Source: a virus
Length of the DNA: 63,905 bases
Virus record (IMG/VR): IMGVR_UViG_3300037245_001426
Location: 1 to 63,905 of that record
Direction: 5' to 3' (one strand)
This document shows positions 12,080 to 51,086 of the stretch, piece by piece. The stretch's first letter is position 1. Every line of letters begins with the position of its first letter. The position numbers and the translations under genes are program-made. Under the pieces are notes generated by a model, which was not told where the DNA came from, did no database searches, and worked only from the letters and a program-made list of their open reading frames with translations.

Positions 12080-12108
12080 AGTATACCATACTTTCAGTCT
12101 CGGGTCAA
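12080..12108 (-). promoter_or_regulatory. Sigma70-type promoter, leftward
   Basis: TTGACC (-35), a 17-bp spacer and TATACT (-10) on the minus strand; five of six matches to consensus in each hexamer with ideal spacing. It lies in the only gap of this size (140 bp) between 11712-12020 and 12161-12637 and points at the former. Host RNA polymerase should read it. Likely drives genes from 12 kb leftward. Confidence 0.75.
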
Positions 12109-12140: not shown

Positions 12141-12156
12141 ATCAAATTGATTTGAT
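12141..12156. promoter_or_regulatory. Inverted repeat, possible operator
   Basis: ATCAAAT-TG-ATTTGAT, a perfect 7-bp inverted repeat with 2-bp spacer, just past the stop of the protease-like gene and about 35 bp upstream of the 12.1-kb promoter. It extends into TGATTTGATTTTGTCACT, which closely matches the leader at 27804-27820. A repressor or activator site is possible. Confidence 0.45.
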
Positions 12157-12160
12157 TTTG

Positions 12161-13726: not shown

Positions 13727-14388
13727 CAGTTCTTCCCCGTTTCTGCTTCCCACTCATCGTAGATCTTGACGCCGCTGCTGGTTCCGATGATGTCAGCTCC
13801 GGCTTCTAGGAAAGTACTAACTGTGCCAAGAATCTTGATGCCGCCGGACGCCTTGATTTCCAGACCGCCAAGTTCCTTCCATAATTTAACTGTGGCTACC
13901 TTTCTAGCCCAGTCATCATCAGGGCAGTACCCAGTCGACGTCTTGATACACTGGGCTCCGGAATCTAGGACAATGGAGTGCGCTGTTTTCTGTTCGTCCT
14001 CAGAAAGCCATCCTGATTCTACAATCACTTTGACCTTGAGTGGCTCGACAATCTTAACAATAGTTCGCAGTTCAAGCATAACATCCAGAAAACGCTCGGA
14101 CTTAAAGAGTCCAAGGTTCCAGACTACATCAAACTCAGTGGCGCCTGCTACACGTGCGGCAATGCACTCCGCGATTTTAGAATCAATCGAAGCGGCACCA
14201 AAAGGGAAACCAATGACCGTGGCCACAGGAATCTTATCCAACTCACATACGGCGTCATGCACCCAACATGAATTGACGCAAACTGACCGGAATCCGTAGT
14301 CCATTGCCTCACTACAAAGATCAACAATGTCTCTGTACGTGGCCGTCGGCTTAAGTAATGTGTGGTCGATCTTACTAGATATAGACAT
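13726..14388 (-). CDS. deoC: Deoxyribose-phosphate aldolase
   Basis: 220 residues from ATG with GGAGACCGATC upstream; an upstream in-frame start would run through ndk. DeoC features: IDHTLLKPTAT near the N-terminus, EFDVVWNLG (D87), CIKTSTGY with the Schiff-base Lys149, and IKASGGI with the assisting Lys179. It cleaves 2-deoxyribose 5-phosphate to glyceraldehyde 3-phosphate and acetaldehyde, so it drains deoxyribose from nucleoside breakdown. Full length for the family. Near ndk it suggests a phage-run nucleotide salvage step. Confidence 0.93.
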   Translation of the reverse strand: MSISSKIDHTLLKPTATYRDIVDLCSEAMDYGFRSVCVNSCWVHDAVCELDKIPVATVIGFPFGAASIDSKIAECIAARVAGATEFDVVWNLGLFKSERFLDVMLELRTIVKIVEPLKVKVIVESGWLSEDEQKTAHSIVLDSGAQCIKTSTGYCPDDDWARKVATVKLWKELGGLEIKASGGIKILGTVSTFLEAGADIIGTSSGVKIYDEWEAETGKN

Positions 14389-16115: not shown

Positions 16116-18358
16116 GATTTCTCCTCCTTTGTCCACTCCATTTTAATCAATGGGATTTGCTCCCGGTAGGACTCAACCTCATCACGTACTATCTCTGCGA
16201 CTTGATCTACAGTTTCTGGTCGTTGTGCGACGTGGATTTCGTCATGGATGTTTAGTGGCTGTACTACCCACTGTGATACCCCTATTGGTTGAATATCCCA
16301 AATCTTGCGTTGGACAGCTTTTGTTATTTGTGCGCCCGAACTCTGTATCCTATGGTTAGCAGCGGCCCGCATGTTGGACGCTTGTACCGCGAACGCTGCT
16401 GCAAACATAGCAGATCTGCATGCGCCCGCAGCAGTTTGCAATCGGTCACGACGCTTGACTTTGATTCTGACATACTCCCACGCTTTCGGTGGACTCTCAC
16501 CTAACTGGAACAACGCCTTGCAGACCTTGTTCTCAAGAGTGAAATACCTTTTGAATCCAAGTAACGACTCAATATGCTCGGCCGGCTCATGCCATATTAC
16601 TTGTGATCCAATGCCACCGGGTTGGCGCATTGAACAGAATTGATCGAAAATCCTCTTTCTAGCGCGCCCAACTCCAGGGTATCGTTTAGCGAAACCCTCG
16701 CTGGCTTTGATGGCGATGTCTTCATCGATACCGAGCTTCTTTGCCATTCCTTCTGGAGTTCCGCCGTATAGGTTCAGGAAGATTCCGCGCTTACCATCAT
16801 TGTAATGGTTGGTAGTTCCCTTAGTGGCCATCACCTGTTCGTATGGTATATCAAAAAGTTGCTCTGCGAATAGGCCGTGTATCTTTTTACCTGCCATAAG
16901 GTCTGCGCGTAGCTTGTCGCACTTATAGTCAGCTTCCGCCAGCACAATCTCAAAAGCGTCGAAGTCACCGCCGCTCAGTACGAATCCACAATCAAAATCA
17001 GCCAAAGGAAAACAGCGTCTGACGTAATCATCATTCTTAATTCCTTGTGCGTTCAGATCGTCAGCGCCGGACATTCTTGAAGACTTGGTTCCGATTACCT
17101 TCAAGGACGCATGGAACCTCTTAGCCAGGATTAGCTTGTCGTAGTTCTCAATCTCCTTTGCAGCCCGCCTGGACTCTAGGACACTTCTAGCCCTGACTGC
17201 CGCTGGGTGAGGTTCACCGTCGTCTGACAACCACCCTAGTGAATGATCCCAGGTACCTGAAGAATCATTCCCCGAGATTGATTCTAAAATCTCCTTACCT
17301 GTGCCCCCGTGCAAGACAATAATCTCATCCTCGTCCATTACCTCTTTGAGGTACTTCTTAACAACACCTGGAGCGGTAGGTGTGGTTCCTTTTAGAATCA
17401 ATGCCTTCTGTCGCAATTCTATCAGTTTAGGCAGGTCGACTGAGAATCCTTTCCATCGGACGGCGGCCACCATGCACGCTAACTCACTGTCATCGTCTCC
17501 TGGTTCCGGGCTTCCGAAGTATTCATACAACCCTCGTGTGTACGTTACATCATCCTCGGCGTACTGCCGCGCCAGAGTATGGTACTTCCAGTGTGATATG
17601 TGAGACTGTATCCACCTCGGCCACGCATTCTTCCAATCGTCCGGGGTTCCTACTGCCAGTGCGTAGGGAGCGTAACCGTACTCTTTGATCTTTTCAGAAT
17701 CTGGGCTGATGTCAGTATACCGCAACAGTACGTCTTCCTTGATGTTCAGTGCGTGTTTAGCCAACTCTTTCAATTGCCCAGACGGGTGGAGGGTCAGAAC
17801 AATATCCTTGAAGTTAGGATCTAGTTCCCCGTCCGACTTGAAACAATCAGCAATCTTCCATTGTGTGGCACGCTTGTCTTTACGCTTGGCAAAGAATATG
17901 TCGTCCAGATGAATTACCCTCTCCAACTCGTCGCAGACCAGACCAGAAAGTCTGGTAGGAATGCGTTTGACCCTGATCGGGTGGCGTTTCATCAGATTCT
18001 GGTACTTACCTTTACGCGCGTGCAGCATTATGTCGCAGGCCGAAGCAGGTTTGATGCAGAAATCAGAAGCTCTGGCTTTCTCCTCAAGGATTGCTATCTC
18101 ATTGATGTGCTGCTCTGGGATCTTGTCATAATCATCGACCAAGGATAATGTGGTGTAACACTTGGAGATGTGAAACCAGTCGAACGCAAGATTGAATCCG
18201 CATACTGGCTTTGATGCTAGCCACTCCAGCAGTTGCAACGTCTCTCCAATTGGGTTCTTCCAAATATCCCACTTAACGATTGGGCCGTCATCCTCTGCGT
18301 ATTGCAAAAGGACAGCGAAACCGTGGAGGCCGCAAGTTTCTGTATCGAAGAATATCAT
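16100..18358 (-). CDS. Family A DNA polymerase with 3'-5' exonuclease domain
   Basis: 752 residues. Exonuclease: IFFDTETCG (D5, E7), CGFNLAFDWF (D60), YAEDDVTYTRG (Y266, D270). Polymerase motif A is SGGDFDAFEIVLA (D465, E470); motif B region is KRGIFLNLYGG with K523; motif C is LNIHDEIHV (H704, D705, E706). No 5' nuclease domain, as in T7-like polymerases. The start MIFFDTETCG has CATAGGACTACC upstream. It is the replicative polymerase of this phage, working with PrimPol-helicase, SNF2 helicase and ligase. Motif A has Phe where most have Tyr-Ser-Gln; motif B is shorter in Arg/Lys than usual. Confidence 0.93.
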   Translation of the reverse strand: MIFFDTETCGLHGFAVLLQYAEDDGPIVKWDIWKNPIGETLQLLEWLASKPVCGFNLAFDWFHISKCYTTLSLVDDYDKIPEQHINEIAILEEKARASDFCIKPASACDIMLHARKGKYQNLMKRHPIRVKRIPTRLSGLVCDELERVIHLDDIFFAKRKDKRATQWKIADCFKSDGELDPNFKDIVLTLHPSGQLKELAKHALNIKEDVLLRYTDISPDSEKIKEYGYAPYALAVGTPDDWKNAWPRWIQSHISHWKYHTLARQYAEDDVTYTRGLYEYFGSPEPGDDDSELACMVAAVRWKGFSVDLPKLIELRQKALILKGTTPTAPGVVKKYLKEVMDEDEIIVLHGGTGKEILESISGNDSSGTWDHSLGWLSDDGEPHPAAVRARSVLESRRAAKEIENYDKLILAKRFHASLKVIGTKSSRMSGADDLNAQGIKNDDYVRRCFPLADFDCGFVLSGGDFDAFEIVLAEADYKCDKLRADLMAGKKIHGLFAEQLFDIPYEQVMATKGTTNHYNDGKRGIFLNLYGGTPEGMAKKLGIDEDIAIKASEGFAKRYPGVGRARKRIFDQFCSMRQPGGIGSQVIWHEPAEHIESLLGFKRYFTLENKVCKALFQLGESPPKAWEYVRIKVKRRDRLQTAAGACRSAMFAAAFAVQASNMRAAANHRIQSSGAQITKAVQRKIWDIQPIGVSQWVVQPLNIHDEIHVAQRPETVDQVAEIVRDEVESYREQIPLIKMEWTKEEKSWADK

Positions 18359-19420: not shown

Positions 19421-19524
19421 ATGATCCTCCAAATAAGTGTTAACACATTTGCGGCCAAGAAAGTGGCGATGACCAAAGACACACCAATCAAGCATGCCAA
19501 AGACATTTCCAGGAATTTGTTCAT
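19417..19524 (-). CDS. Membrane micro-protein (35 aa)
   Basis: MNKFLEMSLACLIGVSLVIA continuing hydrophobic to WRII. The start overlaps the ParB-like gene stop; the stop overlaps the next micro-protein start. One span. Confidence 0.6.
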   Translation of the reverse strand: MNKFLEMSLACLIGVSLVIATFLAANVLTLIWRII

Positions 19525-20471
19525 GCCAGTGCCTTCACCCCGGAGATTGGAATATCGTAATCGATTCCCTTCTCCTCAGCATAGGCTCTGATGTCAAAGT
19601 ACAAGTCCGCCGTGCTGATTTCACCATTAGCCCAAGCACCGAAGCGGGTATGCAAACCGAATCCGACGGTGTCGCCCATGTGTTCGATCATTTCCTGGAC
19701 GATGTTCTTTGGCTGGCGTCTCTTCTTGAAGGGGTCTGTGGCAATGGACTTACCGACGCTGATGCCTTTCTCTCCTCGAAGCCTAGCGTCCTTGATCTTC
19801 TTAACAGCCTCAAACTGTTGATCAGGATCTTTTAGTCCGTAGATTTCCTTGATCTGGTACTGATTCAGCAGACCCGCCGAAGCCTCGTTCTGAATTTCCG
19901 CGGGAAGGTCCAGCAGATTATACCGAACCTGAACCCAACTCATCGAGACGCCAAGTGCCTCAGACGTCTGCCGCCTGTTCAGCCCCAAGTCTTTCAGATG
20001 CTTGATCGCCTTGGCTTCCTGCGTAATATCAAGCGCCTGTCGCTTGAGATTCTCGCCAAGATTAACAAGGCGAGCCTGGATCTCGGTCAAGCCGACCTTG
20101 ATCATGCACGGTATCGTTGCCGTTTTGCTGATCCTGAATGCAGCATGGCGTCTGTGGCCAGCTACGATTCTAAAATCAAAACCGTCTGCCAAACCATCAG
20201 TGTCGAACGCTGGTTGTACGGCAATTGGAAACTGTAGACCGTACTGGTCGATGTCCTTAATCAGATCCACCACGTCAATTGGCATGATCGTACCGCGGCA
20301 ATTGAAATCTGCGTCGGAATAAATCCGACTCATATCAATCTGAACGACCGAGTACTCGTTCAGTACATCTTTTACACTGCCCGCCCAGCTACACACACTG
20401 CAGCGTGCTATTTCTTTGAGGTTGAAATCTTCCTCGTGAAGCTCACGGTAACACTTAGGACAAAGGTTCAT
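19521..20471 (-). CDS. ParB-like protein with N-terminal zinc ribbon
   Basis: 316 residues. Residues 4-27 form a C4 ribbon (CPKC...CSVC then W-A-G). Residues about 42-150 are a ParB/sulfiredoxin-like domain with GHRRHAAF (105-112), the nucleotide-binding box, and residues near 165-195 a helix-turn-helix (NRRQTSEALGVSMSWVQVRY). ParB proteins bind palindromic sites and, with CTP, spread on DNA. This one may bind the dispersed GATTYYRRAATC sites; that is inference. The zinc ribbon is very like the two proteins encoded just upstream. No ParA ATPase is seen, so partition of a plasmid-like prophage is unlikely. Confidence 0.8.
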   Translation of the reverse strand: MNLCPKCYRELHEEDFNLKEIARCSVCSWAGSVKDVLNEYSVVQIDMSRIYSDADFNCRGTIMPIDVVDLIKDIDQYGLQFPIAVQPAFDTDGLADGFDFRIVAGHRRHAAFRISKTATIPCMIKVGLTEIQARLVNLGENLKRQALDITQEAKAIKHLKDLGLNRRQTSEALGVSMSWVQVRYNLLDLPAEIQNEASAGLLNQYQIKEIYGLKDPDQQFEAVKKIKDARLRGEKGISVGKSIATDPFKKRRQPKNIVQEMIEHMGDTVGFGLHTRFGAWANGEISTADLYFDIRAYAEEKGIDYDIPISGVKALA

Positions 20472-23019: not shown

Positions 23020-24875
23020 ACCAGCCTTTCCTCGCTTTGTTTATCTAAAGCTGCTGTCATCTCACCGAGCGTCAAGGCTTGTAGCTTGTTCTTTTTCTGC
23101 AAATTGTCGAGTATCAAACGATCTGTTTCCAAATGAACCAAGTCAATGATGGTGGCTCCCCGATTAACGTCCATGCCGATTCTATGGATGCGACTCTCAC
23201 TTTGGATTCTGTGGTCAAAGTCAAAATCGTTAGAATAGTAAAGAATGGTAGGCGAGGCTGTCAACGTAATGCCCATACCGCCAGCGCCAGGCTGGGCAAT
23301 GAATACTACGTGAGGATATTTCTCTTGTTGATTCTGGAAAATGTCCAGTGGTTCACCTTCCATGTCTCCTTGATTCCATCCTCGGCCATCCACGCGAATG
23401 ACCTTCCACTGGTGGGCCTTCGCTACTTCAACGCATCTATCTACGCTTCCAGTGAATCCGCCGTAGACTACAAGGCGGCCAATATCAAAATGGTCATCCA
23501 AGACGTCTACCAGCGCACCCTCTTTAGGGCAATCTACTTGCTTTGTAGTACGCTGGAACCTAGGACGCTTGCCTTTACCGCCGCAACCATCACAGATTGT
23601 TAAGTCTATAATCTGTTCATCGTCACAGGCACACTGATCTGATGTTAACGCTTCCTGCTTACCAGTTCCGTGGCAGACTGGGCATTCTTCCTCACCAATT
23701 TTCTCTTCCATGTACTGGAATCCGTCGCTCAACTCTCTTAACAAAGTGATTCCAGAAATCACCGTGCTCGCAGCCCTGACGATGCTGCGAGCAAGATTGA
23801 TAGTTTTCTGAGACGGTTCTAGCTCGATAAGTTTGTAGTGCATATCGGGAAGATCCAAGCAATCTTTCTTACGCCTTACCAAAACTAAGCCCTGCATCCG
23901 GTCGTACAGGTGCGCGACCTCATTCTTGCTCTTAATAAACGGATGATACTCTTCATCCATTGCTCCCGCCAGTGCCGCATCATGCTGGGGTTCACCTTCA
24001 AAGCCGCCGCAAGTATCGCAGCGGTTCTCGTCATCCTTCCAAGCCTCAATGCTCGGGAAGCTGCCGCCCGCCGGGGACTCACGGTCCACTATCACAGCTA
24101 GACGCCGTTTGAACTTGTGAATGTTGCCCTCTTTCAGGAACCCTGGACACGCGACTTCACATTGATGCCACCAGTCAGCCGGACTCTTCGGAGCGGGAGC
24201 ACCACTCATTAGGATAACGGAACCTAGATCGCCGTGGTCCTGGCGGATTCCATCTGCCAGCATTTTTCCGGCTTTCGACCGCTGAGTGCCAGGTGTTTTG
24301 AGTTTGACGGATTCGTCGAAGAAGACCCCTCTAGGGGCCATACCGCCCTCAGGCCACTCCGCCATGATTCTGACCAGCTTTTCGTAGGTCATCAACTCAG
24401 GCTTGATTTTTGAGTCCCAGTGTCCTAGCTGCAGGTTGACTTCCTTGAGCGCGGACATGGGAGCTATGAACCACCAACTACTGTGGCCGGACCGTTCCAT
24501 CACTTCGATGGCCGCCAGCGTTTTACCCAGGCCCATCTCGCCTGCGATAATACAATAGTGACGAGTCAACATAAAGTTGACGAATTCTTCCTGGTGGTAA
24601 AAGAGTGACCTGTCGAAATCAGCCTCAATGATTTCAGCATCATAACGGGCGAAAGGATTCTCACCCTTGAGGTAGGCCAGTTGGAAATGGTTACGCGGGG
24701 AATTGGACGCCCGCCAAAGCTTCGTCTTGGGGTCCCAGCGGGCGCCCTCCATGGCCTTGACTTCAGCAATCAATGCACGGTTAAATCCGAACTTGAAATA
24801 GAGCAAGTCCTCTGTATGGTTGATATGTAGAGGCACCCTATATTGTCCTAACCGGACTTTGACTGTCTCAATCAT
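23016..24875 (-). CDS. SNF2-family helicase with HARP-like and DnaJ-like zinc modules
   Basis: 619 residues. Residues 40-60 (EGARWDPKTKLWRAS) match the HARP motif of SMARCAL1-like annealing helicases. Walker A is GEMGLGKT (112-119), Walker B FFDES (D187, E188), and motif VI QSESRIHRIG (558-567). Between the RecA-like halves are cysteine pairs C286/C289, C398/C401 (CPVCHGTG), C415/C417 and C428/C431 (CDGCGGKG), like DnaJ zinc centres. It probably remodels forks or recombination intermediates in phage replication. Confidence 0.85.
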   Translation of the reverse strand: MIETVKVRLGQYRVPLHINHTEDLLYFKFGFNRALIAEVKAMEGARWDPKTKLWRASNSPRNHFQLAYLKGENPFARYDAEIIEADFDRSLFYHQEEFVNFMLTRHYCIIAGEMGLGKTLAAIEVMERSGHSSWWFIAPMSALKEVNLQLGHWDSKIKPELMTYEKLVRIMAEWPEGGMAPRGVFFDESVKLKTPGTQRSKAGKMLADGIRQDHGDLGSVILMSGAPAPKSPADWWHQCEVACPGFLKEGNIHKFKRRLAVIVDRESPAGGSFPSIEAWKDDENRCDTCGGFEGEPQHDAALAGAMDEEYHPFIKSKNEVAHLYDRMQGLVLVRRKKDCLDLPDMHYKLIELEPSQKTINLARSIVRAASTVISGITLLRELSDGFQYMEEKIGEEECPVCHGTGKQEALTSDQCACDDEQIIDLTICDGCGGKGKRPRFQRTTKQVDCPKEGALVDVLDDHFDIGRLVVYGGFTGSVDRCVEVAKAHQWKVIRVDGRGWNQGDMEGEPLDIFQNQQEKYPHVVFIAQPGAGGMGITLTASPTILYYSNDFDFDHRIQSESRIHRIGMDVNRGATIIDLVHLETDRLILDNLQKKNKLQALTLGEMTAALDKQSEERLV

Positions 24876-26231: not shown

Positions 26232-27212
26232 CTAGCCCTTGTCGGGCGTGGCGATCTTCTCGGCGGCTTCCGCAGCCAGCTTGGCAGCTTCATCAGCCTT
26301 CTTCTTCGTACGGTCTGCGGCACGCTGCTTCTTAGCGTCCTCGACTGACTGCTTACGGGCGTCATCCTCAGCCTTACGTACCGCGACACTGTCCGGGTCC
26401 ATGTTAAGAACCCACTGCACGCCAAGTGCGAAACCTTCTGCGGCCTTCTTGAGCTTGTTCTTAGAGCAAAGCTCAGGTCCGATTACGGACGACTCCAACT
26501 CATCCTTGATGATCGACATCTTCTGGAGACGTGGGCTCGCAACAAAGACGGCGGGCTCCTTCGAGCGACCCTGACGCTTGGCGTCCGCGAGTTCCTTCGC
26601 ACGCGTGGCAACCAGCGGGGTGAACTCGTCTGCGTTCAACGTCATAGCCTGGTCAACGTAATTGCCCTGCTCCTCGTTTGGCAGCTTGGAAAGAGTCACA
26701 GCGTTCGATACCGTGATTTTGCCACCATCGACAAGATCCTGGACCGCGCCGTCGAGCTTGAGTAGATTTAGCCGCTGTCCGACCCAAGAAGGACTCTTGG
26801 CTAACTTGGCGGCCATGTCGGTCAGGGTGAGGGTGGGATTCATCGCGAACATACGCTGAAGCTGCCGGGTGTACTGAACCGGCTTCGTCTCGATCCTGTG
26901 AACGTTCGCCATGATCTGCGCTTCGAGCGTCTGCGAATCATTCAGGTCAACAATGTTGATGGGGAGTTCAGTGATTCCAACATCACACGCCGAAGAATAG
27001 CGGTGAAGACCGTCGACCAACTCGTAATAGATTTCGCCAGTGACATCGTCCTTCTGCTCACGCACGTTGATCGGATTCAGGACGCCTACGTCCCGGATCG
27101 AGTCACGCAAACCGATGTATTTTTCATCCTCCTTGTTGACAGCGCGTAGGGCGACGGGATTCTCACGAATGGAAGATACCGGAATCGTAGGGACACTGAG
27201 CGTTGCGGTCAT
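26232..27212 (-). CDS. ParB/RepB-like DNA-binding protein
   Basis: 326 residues from MTATLSVPTIPVSSIREN, with GAGGAGGTCTTC upstream. Residues about 8-95 are a ParB-type N domain containing LVDGLHRYSSA (the GxxR box); residues 125-160 hold an HTH (LTDMAAKLAKSPSWVGQRL). The C-terminal 60 residues are an Ala/Lys/Asp-rich helix (KKQRAADRTKKKADEAAKLA) suited to dimerisation or DNA contact. It is near the start of the leftward early unit, so likely abundant early. A palindrome, TTTGACGTCAAA, lies upstream and could be its operator. Confidence 0.8.
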   Translation of the reverse strand: MTATLSVPTIPVSSIRENPVALRAVNKEDEKYIGLRDSIRDVGVLNPINVREQKDDVTGEIYYELVDGLHRYSSACDVGITELPINIVDLNDSQTLEAQIMANVHRIETKPVQYTRQLQRMFAMNPTLTLTDMAAKLAKSPSWVGQRLNLLKLDGAVQDLVDGGKITVSNAVTLSKLPNEEQGNYVDQAMTLNADEFTPLVATRAKELADAKRQGRSKEPAVFVASPRLQKMSIIKDELESSVIGPELCSKNKLKKAAEGFALGVQWVLNMDPDSVAVRKAEDDARKQSVEDAKKQRAADRTKKKADEAAKLAAEAAEKIATPDKG

Positions 27213-27243
27213 GAAGACCTCCTCTGAAAAAGAGTGAACTGAT

Positions 27244-27255
27244 TTTGACGTCAAA
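27244..27255. promoter_or_regulatory. Palindrome upstream of ParB-like gene
   Basis: TTTGACGTCAAA, a perfect 12-bp palindrome in the 68-bp gap before 26232-27212, about 35 bp from its start codon. A candidate operator for autoregulation. No experiment or close known site backs this. Confidence 0.4.
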
Positions 27256-27280
27256 GTCACATCTGTCATTTGTCAATGAT

Positions 27281-27463
27281 CTACAAGTCTTGCGTTCGCA
27301 TGTAAACACTAATCGCCTCGGCCACTACTCGGCACAATTCCGGATCTAATGTCCTGTCACTTACCCGCTCGTCACACCAGCATTGCGCGGCGATTTCCAG
27401 AGCGGCTTTCATAATACACGGATCTACTGATTTCCCTAACGTGGCCGCTGATTTTGAAGTCAA
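27281..27463 (-). CDS. First leftward gene, hypothetical (60 aa)
   Basis: TTG start; GGTGAG lies just before it and AGGAG 16 bases upstream. Begins MTSKSAATLGKSVDPCIMKA and continues as a helical protein with four Cys (EIAAQCWCDERVSDRTLDPE). It is promoter-proximal in the leftward unit, so probably the first phage protein made from it. Function unknown. Confidence 0.55.
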   Translation of the reverse strand: MTSKSAATLGKSVDPCIMKAALEIAAQCWCDERVSDRTLDPELCRVVAEAISVYMRTQDL

Positions 27464-27493
27464 TTGCTCACCGTGATTCTCCTGTCAAAAGGG

Positions 27494-27508
27494 CAAAATC
27501 AAATCATT
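27494..27508 (-). promoter_or_regulatory. 15-nt leader element, copy 2
   Basis: AATGATTTGATTTTG on the minus strand, 33 nt downstream of the TATATT of the leftward promoter at 27540-27571, and 22 nt or so before the first AGGAG. Identical to copies at 12032 and 27801. Confidence 0.72.
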
Positions 27509-27539
27509 ACCACTTGCGCGGCTACCGCGCCTATGCAAG

Positions 27540-27571
27540 GTAATATACGTACATACGGCACGGAATGTTCA
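27540..27571 (-). promoter_or_regulatory. Bipartite phage promoter motif, leftward
   Basis: TGAACA, 12 bp, then TGTACGTATATTAC, reading leftward into the early operon. TATATT is a plausible -10. The same two blocks and spacing occur at 27738-27769 (rightward) and 63169-63200 (leftward). Confidence 0.75.
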
Positions 27572-27737
27572 CGAGAACCGGAAAGATTAGGAAAATGGCG
27601 CGCCTATACATACGAATAACGTATGTTCACCACTTTCTACTACTCTTTCCTATATATATACTATTCTCTAGAGAAATAGAAAGAAAGAAAGAGAAAAGAC
27701 ATAGAGCGATAAGGAAAAGGGATAATCCGGTAAACAG
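27572..27737. other. Divergent AT-rich control region, possible origin
   Basis: Non-coding stretch between two divergent promoters. It holds a TATATATATA run, the palindrome TTCTCTAGAGAA (27664-27675), then about 50 bases almost pure purine on the plus strand. A partial promoter-like copy (GTGAACATACG...TATGTATAGG on the minus strand near 27600-27630) is also present. The layout next to the primase-helicase resembles phage replication origins; no direct proof. Confidence 0.5.
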
Positions 27738-27769
27738 TGAACAATAGAGGCCGATTGTACGTATATTAC
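27738..27769 (+). promoter_or_regulatory. Bipartite phage promoter motif, rightward
   Basis: TGAACA, 12 bp, then TGTACGTATATTAC, reading rightward to the PrimPol-helicase gene. Downstream there is a CATGGGACATAG stretch and then the 15-nt leader element at the fixed 33-nt distance. Confidence 0.75.
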
Positions 27770-27800
27770 CATGGGACATAGACAGGCGCCCTATGTATAG

Positions 27801-27815
27801 AATGATTTGATTTTG
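27801..27815 (+). promoter_or_regulatory. 15-nt leader element, copy 3
   Basis: AATGATTTGATTTTG, 33 nt downstream of the rightward TATATT. It continues TCACTATGAC, close to the sequence at 12161-12170. It lies about 48 bases before the PrimPol-helicase start. Confidence 0.72.
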
Positions 27816-27863
27816 TCACTATGACTTAGCAATCAACAAGAAAATTGACACGAAAATCACGCC

Positions 27864-30548
27864 ATGCCAACGCGATCGGAAGCAATCAAAACTTTCTTGA
27901 CAGCGATGACCCACGCTGATTTGGCGGAGTCATACTATCTAGGGATGGAGGCCCAAGTCAACGTCGCGCAAGACGGTGGTGACCGCGTATCTACTGAGGG
28001 CTTCAAGGGCCGCACCTGGCATTCCTACTCTGACGGTGCGCAAGAGTGGTACTCATTCAGAATTCCAAAGAAGGCGTTCTCCGACCCTGAGAACAATGAT
28101 TACAAAATCAACTATGATTTGGCCGCGCACGCGGACGGCATTGGCCTAACTGGTTGGGATTGGAAAGAGCGAGTATCCAGGTGGGTGGGTTATGATTTCG
28201 ACGCGATTGCCGGTCACTCAGGCGCTAACGCTCTCACTGACACAGAACTTGACGCCGTACGTGAGGCCGCCATCAATCTACCATGGGTCACGGTCCGCCG
28301 CTCGACATCTGGTAGCGGACTCCATCTCTACGTCTATCTAGACAGCGTTCCCACGGCCACGCACAATGAGCACTCTGCCCTGTCGCGCGCAATCCTAGGT
28401 AAAATGGCCGCCACCACGGGATTCGATTTCAGCAGCAAAGTCGACGTATGCGGATCAGTTCTTTGGATCTGGCATCGTAAGATGACTAACGCTAATCGTG
28501 GACTGGAGCTTATCAAGAAGGGTGAGGTTCTCACTGATATCCCAGTCAATTGGCAGGATCATGTTGACGTAGTCAAAGGGAATCGCAAGCGTATTAAGCC
28601 AGAGTTTGTCGACGATGAATCTAAGTTTGATGAACTCACAGGACAACGTCCACGCGTTAAGCTGGATGACACTCACAAAAAGCTGCTAGATTACTTGGAG
28701 AAAAATAAAGCTCAATGGTGGTGGGACGCGGACCATTACATGATGGTGTGCCACACGCTAGACCTGAAGAAAGCCCATAAGGATCTTCAGTTGCGTGGCA
28801 TATTTGACACGAAGTCAACAGGCGCTACAGGTGCCGCCCAAGGCGCTGACCATAACTGCTTCGCTTTCCCGATTGATCACCCAGAAGGTGGGTGGGTAAT
28901 CAGGAGATACGCCAAAGGAGTAGAGGAATCTAACAACTGGGAGCAAGACGGAAGCGGGTATACGCGATGCTACTTCAACTGCGATCCATCTCTCAAAAAT
29001 GCCGCACAGAACTTTGGCGGTATGGAGGACGAGAAGGGAGCCTTCCACTTCAATGACAGTAAGGCGGTCGCGGCATGCGCCAGGGCGCTAGGTATCAAGA
29101 TCAAACTGCCGGAGTGGTCGTGGCAGCACAAAGCCAAGATACATCAGCATAAAGACGGTCGATTGGTTGTCTCCTTCAAGAAGGAGGCCACAGACCATTA
29201 TGACGATATTCCCGGCTGGCGCGAGGACAAAGGACACTGGACGCGCATATTCAACGCCAATCTTCAAGAGACTTTTGAGCCAGAGGCTATCAAGCACGAC
29301 GACATCATTCGTCATCTGTCCACGGACAAAAGCACCGACCGTGGATGGGTCGTGAACGCCGCAGGTAAGTGGCGTGAAGAACCGTACACACACGTCAGAC
29401 TCGCGATGAAATCTCACGGTTTGCGTGATTCTGAAATCAATAAGATCCTTGGAGACTGTGTACTGGAACCTTGGATTCTTGCCAACGAGCCTTTCAAGGA
29501 AGAATTCTTAGGCGGGCGGCTGTGGAACCGCGATGCTCCGCAGCTTAGATACAAGCCTAAAGAGGATGAACCGTACAATTGCCCCACGTGGTATAAGATT
29601 CTGGAACAGTGCGGCAAGGGCCTGGATTCCGCGGTGAAGACTGACGGCTGGTGTCAGGCCAACGGTGTGTCAACGGGCGCTGACTATCTTAAGATATGGG
29701 TAGCTAGCCTATTCCAAGCGCCCAAGGAGCAACTGCCGTACCTGTTTTTGTATTCCAAGGAGGAGAAGACTGGGAAGTCCACGTTCCATGAAGCTATTGA
29801 AATGCTGATGACTCGTGGGTACGTGCGAGCGGACGTGGCATTGATTTCATCGGCAGGGTTCAACGGCGAACTAGAGGGTGCTGTGTTGTGCGTAGTTGAA
29901 GAGACCAACCTACAGAAAGCCGCCGCGGCACGGAATAGAATCAAGGACTGGGTCATGTCTAAGACGCTGATGATCCACCATAAAGGCCGCACCCCGTATC
30001 AAGTTCGCAATACCGTCCACTTTGTCCAGACCGGAAATAGTATTGAAGAGTGCCCGATTTTCTCGGGTGATACTAGAATCACAATGATTCATGTTCCTGT
30101 ACTCGACATGATGGACATGATTCCTAGGAATCAATTGCACCAACAATTAAAGCAGGAAGCTCCAGACTTCCTCGCTGACATTCTGCAGGTGGAGATACCG
30201 CTGTCTAACGACCGTTTGAATGTACCAATTGTTGAGTCTGACATCAAGAAACTGACGGCTGAAAGCAACCGATCATCGCTGGAAATCTTCCTGGACGAAG
30301 TATGTTATGACGCCCCAGGTGAGTCCATCCTAGTAGCCAACTTGTTTGGACGTTTCCAAGAGTGGCTTGACCCAATGGAAGTGCATGAGTGGAGTAAGAT
30401 CAAGATGGGCCGTGAACTGCCGCACAAGTATCCGAAGGGCCGGATAGGTGCGCCACATTACGTCGGCAATCTGTCGTTTACCGAGCCCGAGAACGTCGAT
30501 CAACCTAAGCTGATCCTCTATGACGGGAATTTGATTAGTGAGCATTAG
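27864..30548 (+). CDS. PrimPol-type primase fused to SF3/D5-like helicase
   Basis: 894 residues. The N-terminal archaeo-eukaryotic primase domain has VGYDFDAIAGH (D111, D113) and TSGSGLHLYV (H154), the catalytic carboxylates and nucleotide-binding His. A D5-like middle leads to a helicase: Walker A within SKEEKTGKSTFH near residues 630-640 and Walker B VLCVVEETN near 675. It should prime and unwind DNA at the phage origin just upstream. No clear Shine-Dalgarno precedes the ATG. Rightward orientation differs from the rest of the replication genes. Confidence 0.87.
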   Translation: MPTRSEAIKTFLTAMTHADLAESYYLGMEAQVNVAQDGGDRVSTEGFKGRTWHSYSDGAQEWYSFRIPKKAFSDPENNDYKINYDLAAHADGIGLTGWDWKERVSRWVGYDFDAIAGHSGANALTDTELDAVREAAINLPWVTVRRSTSGSGLHLYVYLDSVPTATHNEHSALSRAILGKMAATTGFDFSSKVDVCGSVLWIWHRKMTNANRGLELIKKGEVLTDIPVNWQDHVDVVKGNRKRIKPEFVDDESKFDELTGQRPRVKLDDTHKKLLDYLEKNKAQWWWDADHYMMVCHTLDLKKAHKDLQLRGIFDTKSTGATGAAQGADHNCFAFPIDHPEGGWVIRRYAKGVEESNNWEQDGSGYTRCYFNCDPSLKNAAQNFGGMEDEKGAFHFNDSKAVAACARALGIKIKLPEWSWQHKAKIHQHKDGRLVVSFKKEATDHYDDIPGWREDKGHWTRIFNANLQETFEPEAIKHDDIIRHLSTDKSTDRGWVVNAAGKWREEPYTHVRLAMKSHGLRDSEINKILGDCVLEPWILANEPFKEEFLGGRLWNRDAPQLRYKPKEDEPYNCPTWYKILEQCGKGLDSAVKTDGWCQANGVSTGADYLKIWVASLFQAPKEQLPYLFLYSKEEKTGKSTFHEAIEMLMTRGYVRADVALISSAGFNGELEGAVLCVVEETNLQKAAAARNRIKDWVMSKTLMIHHKGRTPYQVRNTVHFVQTGNSIEECPIFSGDTRITMIHVPVLDMMDMIPRNQLHQQLKQEAPDFLADILQVEIPLSNDRLNVPIVESDIKKLTAESNRSSLEIFLDEVCYDAPGESILVANLFGRFQEWLDPMEVHEWSKIKMGRELPHKYPKGRIGAPHYVGNLSFTEPENVDQPKLILYDGNLISEH

Positions 30549-34364: not shown

Positions 34365-37288
34365 TACCCGTCACACTCCCCGAGTTTCTCACCCGCCTGG
34401 CTATCCTCCAAAGAATTACATTCCTCTTCAGCGAGGTATGCTGATCCTGCTACCCACAACGAACACTCAGCATTATACTTAAAATCGTACGGGCTCCTCT
34501 TGCAACTTCCGTCCTGGTCCTTACCGCTGAACAACGTCGCAGTGTGTATCGCCAACGGCTTACCTTCTTCCAGGGAGAAAATGTCACTTAGGTAGTTGAA
34601 CTGCCCAGGAACCTCGTTAGAGATTACTTTAGTTCGCTCCAGGACAATCTCCGTGACGCCGGACACATCAATCTCTACTGGAGGAGGAAGAATGTCTTCC
34701 TCGTACTCCAAGCCTAGATAGGGATTCGGATTATCTGATGCTGAAATCACAGCGAACTCAGTTCCAACGATAACATCCTGAGCCACGAATCCTATGTCAG
34801 ACGGATGGCTGTCGCCACGATCTGTCTGCGGACCAAACAGGATGTTGATACCGCCCACAAAGATGTCACTTGGGTCCAAGTGGGATGTGTCACCAATTGG
34901 CAACTCTCCGGTAGCGTTCTCTCCGATGTTGTTACCACCGGCCAAGCCCAAATCTACTTCGTCATTTGTAGGGAAGACCCAAGTAGCAGGTACATTAGCT
35001 GGCCACGCGAAAAGATACGGTGTCATAGTTCCTGCTTTCACAGGCGTCCAACATTCAAAGTTGATTGTCTGATTGTCAGAATTGAACGCAGACTGTTCAA
35101 CAATACTCTTGACTGGACTGCTAGCAATGTAGTCACGCAGGTCAAGAGTGATAGCGTCAAACGTCTCGACGTTCATCTTGTGTAGGAACGTATTGAACCT
35201 AATGTGCTTCCATGTATTTGATTTCCGAATCAACCAAAATGTGGCCACCTTGTGGATGATGTCTGGTTGGTTGTAAATGTAGTATTCATCGCTACCTTCC
35301 TGGATACCGTACTTGGCCACATTATGCCGCAGGATGATCTTGTTCATTTCGTCCTGCGCGTAACTCACTCGCCAGTCTACAGTGTATTTGGTCACTAGGT
35401 CTTCGGTGGAGGTGAGTTCCACTTCCACGCTCTGAGACTCGATGTCACTAATGTAAAAAGTATCTACGGTCGTAGGTTCCTCAGCTAGATACGAAATATA
35501 GAATACGTCGTTGATAAGTCGAATGCTACATCGCGATTGGAACGCGATCTCTTGCAGAGCCTCGACGATGTTCTTCCGGTCCAAGAGCGCAAAGTTGGCG
35601 GGGAATGGCGCCAACTTTGTTCTGACGCTATCAAAGCTAGTGCTGTCATAAGTCAGGTCTGTATATGTATCTATCAGATACTTAACAATATCTACGATGT
35701 TCGGCCCAACTGAGGACTCGAAAGTGACATAGAGCGAGTCACCCTCCCAATTTTGGTCATCGATTGTAGTTAGTGACCGGGCCAATTTGATCTGCACCGC
35801 AGAGATGCTGCCATACACAGCGATCTCGTCCTCCCACAGATCGTCAGGCACATTCACTAACGTCCTTACACCGTTAATATCCTTAAAGGCTTTGACCTGT
35901 AGGACGGTACCTGGAACTATACTGACCACATGGTAAATGGGCTCATCCTCAGCCATCGTTACCGTAGTTCCCGCGTCAGCCCAAAAGTGGATGGCTCGCT
36001 GATTCTGGCTGGTGCTACGGCGTGTTGGCGCATTGTAGAACAGGTAAAAGTCTTTGCGAAATACGTCAAATAGTCCACCCGGCAAGTACGCTCCGCTACT
36101 GGAGCCATTATTGGATGATGAGTTACCCATACCAGACGGAACCTGTGTCTCCCAAAGTATGTGCTTACCTGGTGGCGTCACAGGGGCGCACCCAGCCGGG
36201 AGAGATTCATCGTTAGATAGCTGTTCTGTGGCCCGCGCCTCATTCTCTGGGTGGGTGCGCGATGTGATTTTGAACTCATTACCTGCACCAAGGAAATACC
36301 CGGTAAACAGTCCGCCGTTTATATCTAACGTGATTGTGCCGCGAGGAAAGTCTTCGCCGCCAAGGATCTCTAGCGGATTACAACCTTCGCCAGTATCCTC
36401 AGCGTCACTTAATGTACCAGCCCTGCGTAAGCTAGCGCATCGAAGTTGTTGTAAGTATTGTGCGACCGTCTCCGTGATTTGGCGGTACACGCCATTAGAC
36501 TCATCACGGTAAGCGCTCGCCTTATTCTTGTAGTCCTCGTTCTCAGCGAAGATATACTTGTCACCGCTAGCCTTGAATCCACTAGATCTGCTGGCGGCCT
36601 GGTCATAGATATTCGCAAGGTTGTTTACGTACTGCGCCCGCGCACTCTGTTCACGGAGATCGGGCGGCTTACCCTCGGTTGTGGCGCTCGTATGGATGTT
36701 CTGACCGCTGATGATGCCGACGCCACAAAGCGTCCGGCCAGTGATGGCCTTGTTTATCTGGACGCAAGGAACATCGATGGGCGTACCAAAGCATGATGGC
36801 CAAGTCTTACCGATCAACTCTCTAGGGATGAATGGAAACTGGCCTTCCTCCGGCGAGAACCCTACCTCTTTGTCCTCAATCTTACTGAGTATGGTGAATG
36901 TCACCGAGCGGTCAGTTTCCCTCCAGGAGACAGGAGAATTGATCGTGCCCTTAAACAAAAGGAAGCGGTCGACCAGACTCAGACCATCAAAGAACTGATA
37001 CACCCAGACGCTAGTCTTATGGATGTCTTGGCTGTCCATGATACTTTTGATCGTACCATCACTGTCGTCAAGAGTCACAGTTATTTGCTGAGAGTCATCA
37101 CTATTCGAGATCGTGATCACAGAATCCAATGACGAGACTTCAAGGATCTTACCTTTGATAGACTGGACGTCACGATCTGCGTACTGCGTAATAGAATCCT
37201 GGGCCCATTCAATGTCAAGAATGGTGATCGGTTCACTGCCATACTGTTCACGTATCTTAGATAATGCTGATGCTGAAAGATTTCTCAC
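34364..37288 (-). CDS. Tail-tip/baseplate hub protein
   Basis: 974 residues; GTG start overlapping the upstream stop. Residues 20-160 look like the beta-rich hub domain of siphovirus tail tips (ILDIEWAQDSITQYADRDV, then GKILEVSSLDSVITISNSDD). The rest is a large multidomain protein with a Cys-rich C-terminus (GKDQDGSCKRSPYDFKYNAE and beyond). Its size and position after the Dit-like genes fit a tail-associated hub that crosses into the cell or anchors fibres. Exact homologue unknown. Confidence 0.7.
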   Translation of the reverse strand: MRNLSASALSKIREQYGSEPITILDIEWAQDSITQYADRDVQSIKGKILEVSSLDSVITISNSDDSQQITVTLDDSDGTIKSIMDSQDIHKTSVWVYQFFDGLSLVDRFLLFKGTINSPVSWRETDRSVTFTILSKIEDKEVGFSPEEGQFPFIPRELIGKTWPSCFGTPIDVPCVQINKAITGRTLCGVGIISGQNIHTSATTEGKPPDLREQSARAQYVNNLANIYDQAASRSSGFKASGDKYIFAENEDYKNKASAYRDESNGVYRQITETVAQYLQQLRCASLRRAGTLSDAEDTGEGCNPLEILGGEDFPRGTITLDINGGLFTGYFLGAGNEFKITSRTHPENEARATEQLSNDESLPAGCAPVTPPGKHILWETQVPSGMGNSSSNNGSSSGAYLPGGLFDVFRKDFYLFYNAPTRRSTSQNQRAIHFWADAGTTVTMAEDEPIYHVVSIVPGTVLQVKAFKDINGVRTLVNVPDDLWEDEIAVYGSISAVQIKLARSLTTIDDQNWEGDSLYVTFESSVGPNIVDIVKYLIDTYTDLTYDSTSFDSVRTKLAPFPANFALLDRKNIVEALQEIAFQSRCSIRLINDVFYISYLAEEPTTVDTFYISDIESQSVEVELTSTEDLVTKYTVDWRVSYAQDEMNKIILRHNVAKYGIQEGSDEYYIYNQPDIIHKVATFWLIRKSNTWKHIRFNTFLHKMNVETFDAITLDLRDYIASSPVKSIVEQSAFNSDNQTINFECWTPVKAGTMTPYLFAWPANVPATWVFPTNDEVDLGLAGGNNIGENATGELPIGDTSHLDPSDIFVGGINILFGPQTDRGDSHPSDIGFVAQDVIVGTEFAVISASDNPNPYLGLEYEEDILPPPVEIDVSGVTEIVLERTKVISNEVPGQFNYLSDIFSLEEGKPLAIHTATLFSGKDQDGSCKRSPYDFKYNAECSLWVAGSAYLAEEECNSLEDSQAGEKLGECDG

Positions 37289-37650
37289 AGTTCAAGGCCC
37301 TCGAACTCAATGTTTATCGTCTGCCATTCACCCTGTACGGAAGTGAATTCAAACGGGTTAATTGTGAAATTTCCCACCCATGTCCGCTCAAGATGGTCAA
37401 CAAATCTGATTTGGGAATCAAAATAGAGCTTCAAGAACAACCTGAACTCTAAAGCTTTTTGTCGATGCATCTCGAAGACCATCAACAATCTGACTCGATC
37501 GTTCTTAGTCTTGACGTAGGTGTACTGCTTCCCATCCTGCGTGTACCGGAGATTGATAGTGTGCGTGTCATTGTCACTGTCCCCGAATCCTGGGTTTGGC
37601 AGGTACAGCAGTTGCTTGACAGCCGGGTATGGCGCTGCTAATTGGATCAT
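37285..37650 (-). CDS. Distal-tail-like minor tail protein (121 aa)
   Basis: MIQLAAPYPAVKQLLYLPNP, ending FVDHLERTWVGNFTINP then TINIEFEGLEL. This end aligns in pattern with the C-terminal domain of the protein encoded just upstream (LRDWEGRNWVGVIVSPNNP then VTIELEGHAG), so both carry the same minor-tail domain. It should sit at the tube end near the hub. Confidence 0.7.
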   Translation of the reverse strand: MIQLAAPYPAVKQLLYLPNPGFGDSDNDTHTINLRYTQDGKQYTYVKTKNDRVRLLMVFEMHRQKALEFRLFLKLYFDSQIRFVDHLERTWVGNFTINPFEFTSVQGEWQTINIEFEGLEL

Positions 37651-40565
37651 GTTTTTGTCCCTTCCGCTGTTTGAGTGAAGGTTACAGTGGAAGACGCAGT
37701 AGTATCGTACCCAGCATGCCCTTCCAACTCAATCGTGACTGTGTTCATACAAAGCGCCCCATCACGCACGACTGGGTTATTGGGTGATACTATTACGCCC
37801 ACCCAGTTCCTACCTTCCCAGTCCCGCAGTGTTACTTGCTTACCTAAAGTTGTTTTGATAAACGATCTGACCTGATTGGTTTCAGTTTCCGTCAGCCCAA
37901 CAAAGTCCATAACCAAATGGTCATTCTTTGGCCAAATCGGATCGGCGAAGACGATTAAGGTGCCACCGCGGGTCTCTCGATTTATTCTTTGGAAATGCAT
38001 CCGCTCGCGGTTACCGAATTCTGCGCCTCGCAATGTTAGAGTATGCGTAACAGAAGTTAATGGGTATGCGAACTGCACATTATCGTAGTGCGGCAATTCT
38101 GGCACTACACGCCCTTGTGCGTTGCACAATTCTCCTACGCGTGTGAGCGTATGGTAAGCACTCTGCCGAAATTCAACAGTGTTTGACGCGGTCCTAGTCG
38201 TAATAGATTCAAGATCAACAACCTGTGTGAATGTTACCACCGATTTTGTGGGCTTACAAAGGTCAGCAATGGCAGTTTGTGTGAATGTCACAACTGATCC
38301 ACCGCCATGAGTTACTTGCGCTTCCTGGGTGAAGGTTATCGTATTCTCGGCCACCTTACTAATACCGTCCGCTGCTCTAATATGTACGACGCGCGCATTC
38401 TGCTCAAAATTGATTCTAGAATCAGGCGGCGCTTGTCCAGCGATCTGAGTGAGCCCGACAGTTTGCTGAAAACCAGTAGGCTCCAGTGTGACGTTACTAT
38501 CCTCTGGCACGGTCCAAATTATTTCTGCGAGATCAGACTCAGCAAAAACGGATATTGGACTATACCGTATACCCTGTAAAAACTCGAGTAGCGACGAGGC
38601 AACTACTGATCGTGGGAATATAGCCAATATACTCTGCGTGAACTCCAGTGACGATTCTGCCCTTGCTACTTTGAATGGTACACCTTGAGTAGCTTCCTGC
38701 GTGAAGTCAAGAGCATGCGTAACAGCACGCGAGTATATAGTAGTTCCATTTAGAGTGGCGTCAGCCTCAACTAAGAAATTTAAGGGACTCGACGCCGCAA
38801 TAGGCTCCGTACCGGCACGAACTATCAATTGAGAAAATATGACAGTGTTTAAGGCTTCAGCCGATAAGGTGTCAGGTATCCTAGCTTCCTGGGTGAACGC
38901 GATGGCATTAGACGTTGTGAGGTACATCGGCATTTGTATAACAGTCGCAGTTTGACTGAATGTTACCGTACTGGTAACTGGATAATTTGATTGTATAATA
39001 AGTGGCGCGGCAGTCTGAGTGAACGTTACTGTATTCTCAGCGATCTCTTCCTGTATTGCCCCACGCAATGCCTCTTGGCCAAACGTAACTGTCGACTCCG
39101 CCGTTTCGGTATGTGTTTGCGGTCCTAGACGACTGGTAACGCTAGTCGTGCATACTCCTGTAGGTATTGAGTCAATACCGCCAATGTACTCGCTGGTTTT
39201 TAATGTAGACGTAAATTGGCCACTCTGGAGATACAATTTGTCATCCGTTGAGCCCACCCAAGGTGTGCTAATTCCATTCCATGATACGCCTTGAGCCGCA
39301 GTATCGACACCTGATACATCTTGGCTAGTTTTAATAGTAGATGTAAATTGGCCGCTCTGAAAATACAATTTAGCTGGGCTGGCGCCTGACCATGGCGTAT
39401 CTGTGCTATCTGATGACACGTCCGTAACAGTGCCATTTATAGTGTTTACATACAGGCTAGTTTTTAGAGTGGACGTAAATTGTCCGCTCTGAAGATACAA
39501 TCTATCCCCATTGAGTCCTGCCCAAGGAGTATCCTGCCCGTCCCATGAGATGCCAAATGGTAGTGTATCTATGGCGCCAATAGATTCGCTGGTTTTCAGA
39601 GTGGACGTAAATTGACCGCTCTGAAGATAAAGTTTGTTAGCTGCATCACCTATCCAAGGAGTGTTTGTTCCATCCCACGAGATGCCCCAAACAAGGGTGT
39701 CAATGCCGCCCACGTGCTCGCTGGTTTTCAGGGTGGACGTAAATTCACCACTCTGAAGATATAGTTTGTCAGCGAATTCGCCACACCAAGGCGTGTCTCC
39801 TTCGACTACCCCTGTTCCGCCTTCCGAAGCCGCCTCTTGGACAAACGTAACTGTTGACTCGGCCGTCTCTGTGTGTACTTGCGGCCCTAGTCCTAGACGA
39901 CTGACAACGTTAGTCGTACATACTCCTATAGGTACTAAATCAATACCGCCAATGTACTCGCTGGTTTTAATAGTGGCTGTAAATTGGCCGCTCTGAAGAT
40001 ACAATTTGTCAGCGCCTGACCCGATCCAAGGAGTGTCGGTTCCGTTCCATGATATACCTTGAGGCGCATTATCGACGCCCGATACATCCTGGCTAGTTTT
40101 AATAGTAGATGTAAATTGGCCGCTCTGAAGATACAATCTATCAGGTGTCCCGCCTGACCACGGTGTATCTGTGCCGTCTGATGACACGTCAGTATTTTGG
40201 CCACCCGTAGACTTACTAGTTTTTAGAGTGGACGTAAATTGACCGCTCTGAAGATACAATTTATCTGCAGCGAGTCCTGCCCAAGGAGTATTCTGTCCGT
40301 CCCATGAGATACCAAATGGTGTACCGTCTATTATGGCAACAGACTCGCTAGTCTTCAAGGTGGACGTAAATTGGCCACTCTGAAGATAAAGTTTGTTAGA
40401 CTGGTCACCTATCCAAGGAGTATTCTGTCCGTCCCACGAGATACCATAAATAAAGAAGTCAATGCCGCCTACATACTGGCTAGTTTTCAGAGTGGACGTA
40501 AATTCGCCACTCTGAAGATAGAGTTTGTCAGCTTGTTCGCCAGCCCAAGGTGTATGTTCTGCCAT
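37647..40565 (-). CDS. Repeat-rich tail protein: ten propeller-like blades, STVTF repeats, distal-tail domain
   Basis: 972 residues. Residues 1-460 hold ten 40-44-residue repeats: TPWxG, KLYLQSGQFTSTLKTS, then GISWDG. They form two sets of five, each closed by a variant blade and a HTETAESTVTF stretch. Residues about 460-800 hold around 18 short repeats of the type ESTVTFTQ. The last 150 residues are a minor-tail domain like 37285-37650. Five-bladed lectin-like propellers (tachylectin-2 type) have a similar repeat length. Probably a receptor- or surface-binding tail protein. A GATTTTAGAATC palindrome abuts the ATG, and no Shine-Dalgarno is seen. Confidence 0.75.
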   Translation of the reverse strand: MAEHTPWAGEQADKLYLQSGEFTSTLKTSQYVGGIDFFIYGISWDGQNTPWIGDQSNKLYLQSGQFTSTLKTSESVAIIDGTPFGISWDGQNTPWAGLAADKLYLQSGQFTSTLKTSKSTGGQNTDVSSDGTDTPWSGGTPDRLYLQSGQFTSTIKTSQDVSGVDNAPQGISWNGTDTPWIGSGADKLYLQSGQFTATIKTSEYIGGIDLVPIGVCTTNVVSRLGLGPQVHTETAESTVTFVQEAASEGGTGVVEGDTPWCGEFADKLYLQSGEFTSTLKTSEHVGGIDTLVWGISWDGTNTPWIGDAANKLYLQSGQFTSTLKTSESIGAIDTLPFGISWDGQDTPWAGLNGDRLYLQSGQFTSTLKTSLYVNTINGTVTDVSSDSTDTPWSGASPAKLYFQSGQFTSTIKTSQDVSGVDTAAQGVSWNGISTPWVGSTDDKLYLQSGQFTSTLKTSEYIGGIDSIPTGVCTTSVTSRLGPQTHTETAESTVTFGQEALRGAIQEEIAENTVTFTQTAAPLIIQSNYPVTSTVTFSQTATVIQMPMYLTTSNAIAFTQEARIPDTLSAEALNTVIFSQLIVRAGTEPIAASSPLNFLVEADATLNGTTIYSRAVTHALDFTQEATQGVPFKVARAESSLEFTQSILAIFPRSVVASSLLEFLQGIRYSPISVFAESDLAEIIWTVPEDSNVTLEPTGFQQTVGLTQIAGQAPPDSRINFEQNARVVHIRAADGISKVAENTITFTQEAQVTHGGGSVVTFTQTAIADLCKPTKSVVTFTQVVDLESITTRTASNTVEFRQSAYHTLTRVGELCNAQGRVVPELPHYDNVQFAYPLTSVTHTLTLRGAEFGNRERMHFQRINRETRGGTLIVFADPIWPKNDHLVMDFVGLTETETNQVRSFIKTTLGKQVTLRDWEGRNWVGVIVSPNNPVVRDGALCMNTVTIELEGHAGYDTTASSTVTFTQTAEGTKT
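38140..40563 (-). repeat. DNA repeats encoding propeller blades and STVTF units
   Basis: About 129-bp units at 39130-40560 (ten copies; five-unit block duplicated) and shorter degenerate units downstream to 38140. The unit core (RC of 'actagttttyagagtggacgtaaattg'-like) is nearly identical between copies, so recombination between units could change blade number. Confidence 0.75.
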
Positions 40566-40620
40566 GATTCTAAAATCAGGTTACATGAGGAGTCCATTCC
40601 TCACGCACCTGCTCAGGGGT

Positions 40621-51022: not shown

Positions 51023-51040
51023 ATCGCTCTCCTTGTTAAA

Positions 51041-51085: not shown

Positions 51086-51086
51086 T

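Follow-up and report, generated by a model that had tools for sequence, protein, structure and literature searches.

A promoter-associated 15-mer and a genome-wide palindrome in a contractile-tailed phage, candidate DNA targets of an orphan ParB-family protein

The window analysed here, positions 1 to 63,905 of an IMG/VR virus record, comes from a contractile-tailed phage, with profile matches to a tail sheath, portal, DNA polymerase, helicase, exonuclease and primase. A primase-like gene diverges from an operon that includes ParB-A, an orphan ParB-family protein, and the leader on either side carries the same 15-nt element (Table 1), ParB-A lying behind the minus-strand leader. An earlier note on this DNA had described three exact 15-mers, each 33 nt from a TATAYT hexamer, and exact matching in the window bore this out, with TATACT, TATATT and TATATT ending exactly 33 nt upstream of the elements at 12032, 27494 and 27801, respectively. 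The core TGATTTGATTT occurs four times, against a mean of 0.0 in dinucleotide shuffles of the window. With its fourth, inverted copy, the promoter at 12 kb is bracketed by an inverted pair of elements, as is the divergent pair of promoters at 27.5-27.8 kb. The contig ends in repeated GCAG tetranucleotides (63789-63905), possibly an assembly artefact. The window also contains an inverted repeat (51035-51091) that precedes a gene start and has 28-nt arms, 89% complementary and separated by 1 nt, and imperfect 132-bp repeats inside two tail-region genes (39182-40556 and 48434-49112).

Table 1. Genes, promoters, elements and palindromic sites in the window
Feature	Position	Strand	Remarks
ParB-A, orphan ParB-family protein (ParB_N + ParB HTH), candidate binder	26232-27212	-	Pfam, PDB sequence, fold, covariation
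ParB-B, second ParB-family protein, alternative candidate binder	19521-20471	-	Pfam; relatives
Primase-like protein, plus-strand leader	27864-30548	+	PHROGs; relatives
-10 TATATT, primase promoter, inside GTACGTATATTAC	27762-27767	+	common promoter block
-10 TATATT, ParB-A operon promoter	27542-27547	-
-10 TATACT, 12-kb promoter; TTGACC at 12103-12108, 17-bp spacer	12080-12085	-
Element AATGATTTGATTTTG, primase leader	27801-27815	+	exact match; kept in primase relatives
Element AATGATTTGATTTTG, ParB-A operon leader	27494-27508	-	exact match
Element AATGATTTGATTTTG, downstream of 12-kb promoter	12032-12046	-	exact match
Fourth copy ATTGATTTGATTTTG, inverted, upstream of 12-kb promoter	12146-12160	+	one mismatch
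Palindromic site TGATTTTGAAGTCA	27449-27462	.	conserved in G045
Palindromic site TGATTCTCCTGTCA, degenerate	27474-27487	.	not conserved in G045
Palindromic site TGACTTAGCAATCA	27822-27835	.	conserved
Palindromic site TGACACGAAAATCA, adjoins primase start	27846-27859	.	conserved
Two overlapping palindromic sites, upstream of ParB-A start	27240-27259	.
Dispersed site TGATTCTCATATCA	435-448	.
Dispersed site TGATCTCAAAATCA	6325-6338	.
Dispersed site TGATTCTCAAATCA	8282-8295	.
Dispersed site TGATTTCAGAATCA	8910-8923	.
Dispersed site TGATTTCAGAATCA	11062-11075	.
Dispersed site TGATTTCAGAATCA	11970-11983	.
Dispersed site TGATTTCACGATCA	13056-13069	.
Dispersed site TGATTCTACAATCA	14014-14027	.
Dispersed site TGATGCAGAAATCA	18052-18065	.
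Dispersed site TGATTTCAGCATCA	24629-24642	.
Dispersed site TGATTCCAACATCA	26972-26985	.
Dispersed site TGATTACAAAATCA	28097-28110	.
Dispersed site TGATTCTGAAATCA	29426-29439	.
Dispersed site TGATACTAGAATCA	30068-30081	.
Dispersed site TGATGCTGAAATCA	34736-34749	.
Dispersed site TGATTTCCGAATCA	35219-35232	.
Dispersed site TGATCGTACCATCA	37048-37061	.
Dispersed site TGATTTGGGAATCA	37407-37420	.
Dispersed site TGATTCTAGAATCA	38411-38424	.
Dispersed site TGATTCTAAAATCA, at gene start	40565-40578	.
Dispersed site TGATTTCAAAATCA	50438-50451	.	one core base differs in G045
Dispersed site TGATCATAACATCA	55758-55771	.
Dispersed site TGATCGTACCATCA	60781-60794	.
Dispersed site TGATTCCGAAATCA	61722-61735	.
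Dispersed site TGATTGCGGAATCA	63503-63516	.

A diverged version of the element, proposed earlier for the promoter at 63.17 kb, did not survive inspection: the 15 nt at +33 there, AATAATCCGAGAATC, agree at 8 of 15 positions, a score reached by 2% of positions. What that locus has in common with the others is the promoter block GTACGTATATTAC, not the 15-mer. Blocks of this kind, about 37-41 nt long (GTGAACA..GCCG..TGTACGTATATTAC) and lacking a TTGACA box, are common to the promoters at 27536-27573, 27737-27778 and 63160-63200, and similar GAACA...CGTATTATA blocks lie upstream of leaders in several relatives; they perhaps represent a phage-specific promoter class. The description of the leaders as unrelated is correct in part, the two promoters at 27.5-27.8 kb having a 37-nt block in common. 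Elsewhere in the window, the protein encoded at 8175-8666 gives weak matches to Sigma70_r2 and HTH_23 and may be sigma-like or a helix-turn-helix protein; G050 (L171 7393-7998) has a longer protein with a helix-turn-helix-like end.

The 15-mer is not itself palindromic; in it two TGATT half-sites overlap in the same direction (TGAT-W-TGATTTT). This half-site, TGATTTTG, makes up the left half of TGATTTTGAAATCA, and in inverted arrangement it recurs at about 45 palindromic sites across the genome with the consensus TGATTYYRRAATCA (symmetrised logo for the window; similar in relatives), most of them intragenic and most densely clustered at the ParB-A/primase promoters. Against dinucleotide shuffles of the window, TGAT-N6-ATCA was found 25 times where 1.3 were expected, and TGATT-N4-AATCA (TGATTNNNNAATCA) 14 times where 0.1 were expected, with TGAT/ATCA at gaps of N4, N5, N7 and N8 and permuted half-sites near expectation. 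An unbiased scan for gapped palindromes ranked this palindrome first in the window and in eight relatives, and across 261 kb of the clade TGATT-Ng-AATCA occurred 72 times at N4, 21 times at N5 and 0-8 times at other gaps (control, 0-2). TGAT-N7-ATCA is also enriched in L148, L209, L215 and L222, and a spacing one base longer may therefore be tolerated in some relatives.

The palindromic sites are under selection as DNA, because they are enriched beyond synonymous shuffles and conserved in the relative G045. In coding DNA, 11 copies of TGATT-N4-AATCA were observed against 0.29 in synonymous-codon shuffles (maximum 4 in 200), and 21 of TGAT-N6-ATCA against 2.7. Conservation in G045, which is 84% identical over 26 kb, extends to 19 of 21 sites, compared with 34% for random 8-position sets. 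A protein-level cause of the intragenic sites was rejected, since synonymous shuffles predict the reading-frame bias of 27:7 (82%) but not the number of sites. Other over-represented palindromes, namely GGGCC-N4-GGCCC (G016), TCCTGA-N1-TCAGGA (G003) and GCGGG-N7-CCCGC (G007), were set aside as having other causes: a tandemly repeated gene stretch, tandem repeats and tRNA-arm-like sequences. No report of the motif was found in the open-access literature.

Related phage leaders were searched in IMG/VR, a check that the earlier note had proposed, with the pattern TATAYT-N31-34-AATGATWTGATTT; this pattern on its own returned L039, a contig of 4.3 kb with a long ORF homologous to the primase of the window, and primase searches led to further relatives. 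In total the element is present in about 20 further IMG/VR contigs, and in 18 it lies at the divergent ParB-A/primase pair. Primase relatives of at least 46% identity (L135-L142, L148) have it in the divergent region, nearly all on both sides and reading outward; the primase-side copy has diverged in L136, and L141 has the variant TGATATGATTAG. Leader elements are absent from primase relatives of at most 44% identity (L143-L147). A scan for element plus palindrome added nine contigs (L209/L211, L215, L218, L219, L221, L222, L223, L224 and L226), all of which have ParB-A and/or the primase and most of which have many palindromes, whereas scan matches lacking both genes had no palindrome enrichment beyond the site required by the pattern, except for a slight one in L210. 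At 13259-13316 of L210 (3300038379_000080) two element copies face outward or inward, with a strong hairpin after one copy and neither ParB-A nor primase in the examined stretch. A pattern scan of genome contigs gave eight matches without ParB-A or primase, which we took as noise, and therefore no host or prophage was identified. There is no close annotated phage relative by primase (at most 31% identity over short stretches) or portal (24%), and a nucleotide search with the window gave short matches only. Among motif-less relatives, a long inverted repeat lies at the ParB-A/primase divergent promoters (L196 700-900, L191 8290-8375, L185 18385-18475); the ParB-A start in L196 seems to follow a TATAGG box immediately, perhaps without a leader.

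Promoter geometry differs among these genomes. With the -10 chosen as a consensus guess, TGAT lies 35, 35 and 35 nt from the best -10-like hexamer in the window, 30-36 nt in many relatives, and about 16-24 nt in L139, L140 (plus strand), G050 and others. Equal spacing thus describes the window and its closest relatives, with values from about 16 to 36 nt elsewhere, and a fixed 33-nt spacing common to the whole clade was rejected because the distances vary. In L112, recovered as a portal relative, TTGACA and TAGAAT are followed by the element 34 nt downstream. An inverted second copy stands upstream of the promoter at the 12-kb locus, in L112 and in G050; the pair flanking a TTGACA promoter in L148 faces inward, which leaves its downstream copy reversed.

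These observations bear directly on whether the 15-mer acts as RNA. The earlier note had recognised a real, selected, promoter-tied regulatory element, possibly the target of a regulator, and in this it was right; the action on early transcript that it proposed, by antitermination or RNA stability, finds no support in most of the evidence. A leader RNA signal for antitermination, stability or translation would suit the leader position, the mostly sense orientation and the window's 33-nt spacing, and the element could pair with sites containing AATCA that lie close to several start codons. The spacer is also hairpin-prone: the 33 nt before the element have a mean fold z of -0.86, with 28% of 46 copies at p ≤ 0.05 against dinucleotide shuffles, compared with 5-9% in three of four flanking stretches and 18% just downstream of the element. 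An earlier set, compared with mononucleotide shuffles, gave z < -2 for 7 of 21 leaders and for 8% of control windows; near-zero variance distorted the control mean for the window there. Such a signal is nevertheless hard to reconcile with variable spacing, with copies upstream of promoters and with the reversed copy in L148; the half-site moreover forms palindromes inside genes, and no Rfam family matches. Lambda nut and HK022 put, RNA elements of fixed orientation, are likewise leader elements downstream of early promoters and accompanied by hairpins, but the reversed and upstream copies seen here depart from the orientation-specific downstream element of processive antitermination. Although the orientation of nearly all leader copies with transcription, the enrichment of hairpins before the element and its own lack of palindromic symmetry count against a DNA operator, a DNA-binding protein fits the evidence on the element better, and we regard an RNA function as unlikely, indeed quite improbable. 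The 5′ hairpin, present in some copies, may serve transcript protection or a second function. Pairing with the 16S rRNA 3′ end and an IHF site (WATCAANNNNTTR) were also discarded by eye, the former because TGATAT variants break the pairing and the latter because variants with TGATATGATTTT break the WATCAA consensus.

ParB-A belongs to the ParB family by Pfam matches above the cut-offs (PF02195, E=1.9e-11; PF17762, E=5.1e-8). Its PDB sequence matches are Spo0J, Noc, ParB and KorB, the last with 8qa8 (E=3.7e-6) by sequence and 8qa9 (E=7.5e-11) by fold; Spo0J and Noc match better than KorB, whose Pfam domain falls below its cut-off. A structural model (mean pLDDT 76) has the same four proteins as best fold matches, and its DNA-binding domain fits the Noc-NBS and ParB-parS complexes. 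Against the CTP-pocket motifs GERRxRA and ENxxR, ParB-A aligns as GLHRYssA and ANvhR, with the arginines kept and other positions changed; as nucleotide-pocket positions are partly altered (GERR to GLHR, EN to AN), clamp behaviour should not be taken for granted. A short ORF (27281-27463) lies between ParB-A and its leader; the start of this ORF overlaps a palindromic site, and by eye it has an apparent counterpart in L135.

The motif co-occurs with a particular ParB-A. Where ParB-A is at least 50% identical and its recognition helix reads S-x-x-W-x-x-[QS]-R-L (xQRL or SSRL end), element and palindromes are present; with a WIKDRL helix (L141, L218) there are elements and few palindromes, L141 having TGATTAG variants; and in relatives of at most 39% identity with other helices the motif is absent. 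Since this distribution follows phylogeny, the covariation is co-occurrence and not proof, and shared ancestry as well as the second ParB-family gene count against assigning the sites to ParB-A. ParB-A is nonetheless the best candidate and most likely binder of element and palindromes, because one of the elements serves its own operon, the protein resembles Noc, ParB and KorB, and its recognition helix tracks the motif. The parS consensus of ParABS systems is near TGTTNCACGTGAAACA, which the dispersed sites (TGATTYYRRAATCA) do not resemble, and no ParA was found among the 39 window proteins scanned, a subset of the genes.

Another binder could read the same motif system: ParB-B, a further protein of the phage, or a nucleoid or transcription factor of the host whose sites are carried by the phage. 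Besides the window, three relatives that bear the motif encode ParB-B, and the domain scan covered 39 window proteins; against this, the ParB-B gene has no site cluster at its own locus in the window, the densest cluster is at the ParB-A/primase promoters, and the motif tracks the ParB-A helix, leaving a different binder rather doubtful. ParB-B, which has a ParB HTH and possibly an N-terminal zinc ribbon, is only distantly related to ParB-A. The position of the cluster between a primase gene and one that diverges from it might also suggest an iteron-like replication origin at which the element and nearby sites bind an initiator. We consider this very improbable, given that the element also accompanies the 12-kb promoter and further promoters of L112, G050 and L148, and that the sites are scattered genome-wide.

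We consider it probable that the 15-mer serves as a DNA operator at promoters, one part of a genome-wide network of sites for ParB-A. The sequences establish the motif network, its selection, its layout and its company with ParB-A; the binder, the direction of regulation and the role of the dispersed sites are inferred. The element would be an operator with half-sites in direct orientation, the same recognition unit in inverted form giving the dispersed palindromes. ParB-A would bind the elements that flank the 12-kb promoter and those around the ParB-A/primase pair, and may repress or tune the promoters concerned, autoregulation included. From the dispersed sites it might nucleate and bring about long-range silencing or genome organisation, as do KorB on RK2 and Noc on the B. 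subtilis chromosome. More tentatively, it is possible that orphan ParB clamps load at dozens of mostly intragenic palindromes and are focused on early promoters by the direct-repeat operator, thereby silencing or organising the whole phage genome.

Known systems resemble this arrangement in part. KorB acts on RK2 as a CTP clamp, repressing promoters from both proximal and distal OB sites (PMC11790492); the likeness lies in a ParB-family transcription regulator with operators near and far from promoters, capable in KorB's case of long-range silencing (PMC11790492), and in detectable sequence and fold similarity to ParB-A, and the position of the element at promoters appears operator-like. Whereas the RK2 OB is 16 bp, lies upstream of promoters and works with KorA (PMC11790492), here some 45 sites occur in 64 kb, many of them intragenic, the direct-repeat element is mostly downstream of promoters, and no KorA counterpart was identified. 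Noc of Bacillus subtilis has about 70 scattered palindromic sites (PMC4331003, PMC8429893), likewise a ParB-family protein with many palindromes over one replicon, but it is chromosomal and division-related, while the sites here are on a phage, much denser and associated in some copies with promoters. SopB of phage N15 is again a ParB-family protein whose inverted-repeat sites lie on a phage genome; there are four of them, the centromere sites IR1-4, and a ParA partner, SopA (PMC7205306), as against ten times more sites and no ParA among the scanned proteins here. In L5-like mycobacteriophages more than 20 stoperators serve one phage regulator, spread over the genome and in some cases at promoters (PMC9283540). 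Stoperators are 13-bp, asymmetric and orientation-dependent, lie in promoters or short intergenic spaces and bind a monomeric repressor (PMC9283540), in contrast to the symmetric, mostly intragenic 14-bp palindromes described here, which are not stoperators in that sense.

Orphan ParB-like proteins are widespread on mobile elements, and a survey of the ParB fold found that divergent copies there are almost always orphans without a ParA-binding motif (PMC12704722). Here a candidate DNA target of one such protein can be read from the sequence. A spacing-specific palindrome and its promoter-side variant, kept in about 20 phage contigs, make the function of an orphan phage ParB directly testable. 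If the proposed role is true, it would give phages an equivalent of KorB-type silencing or of the site networks used by Noc.
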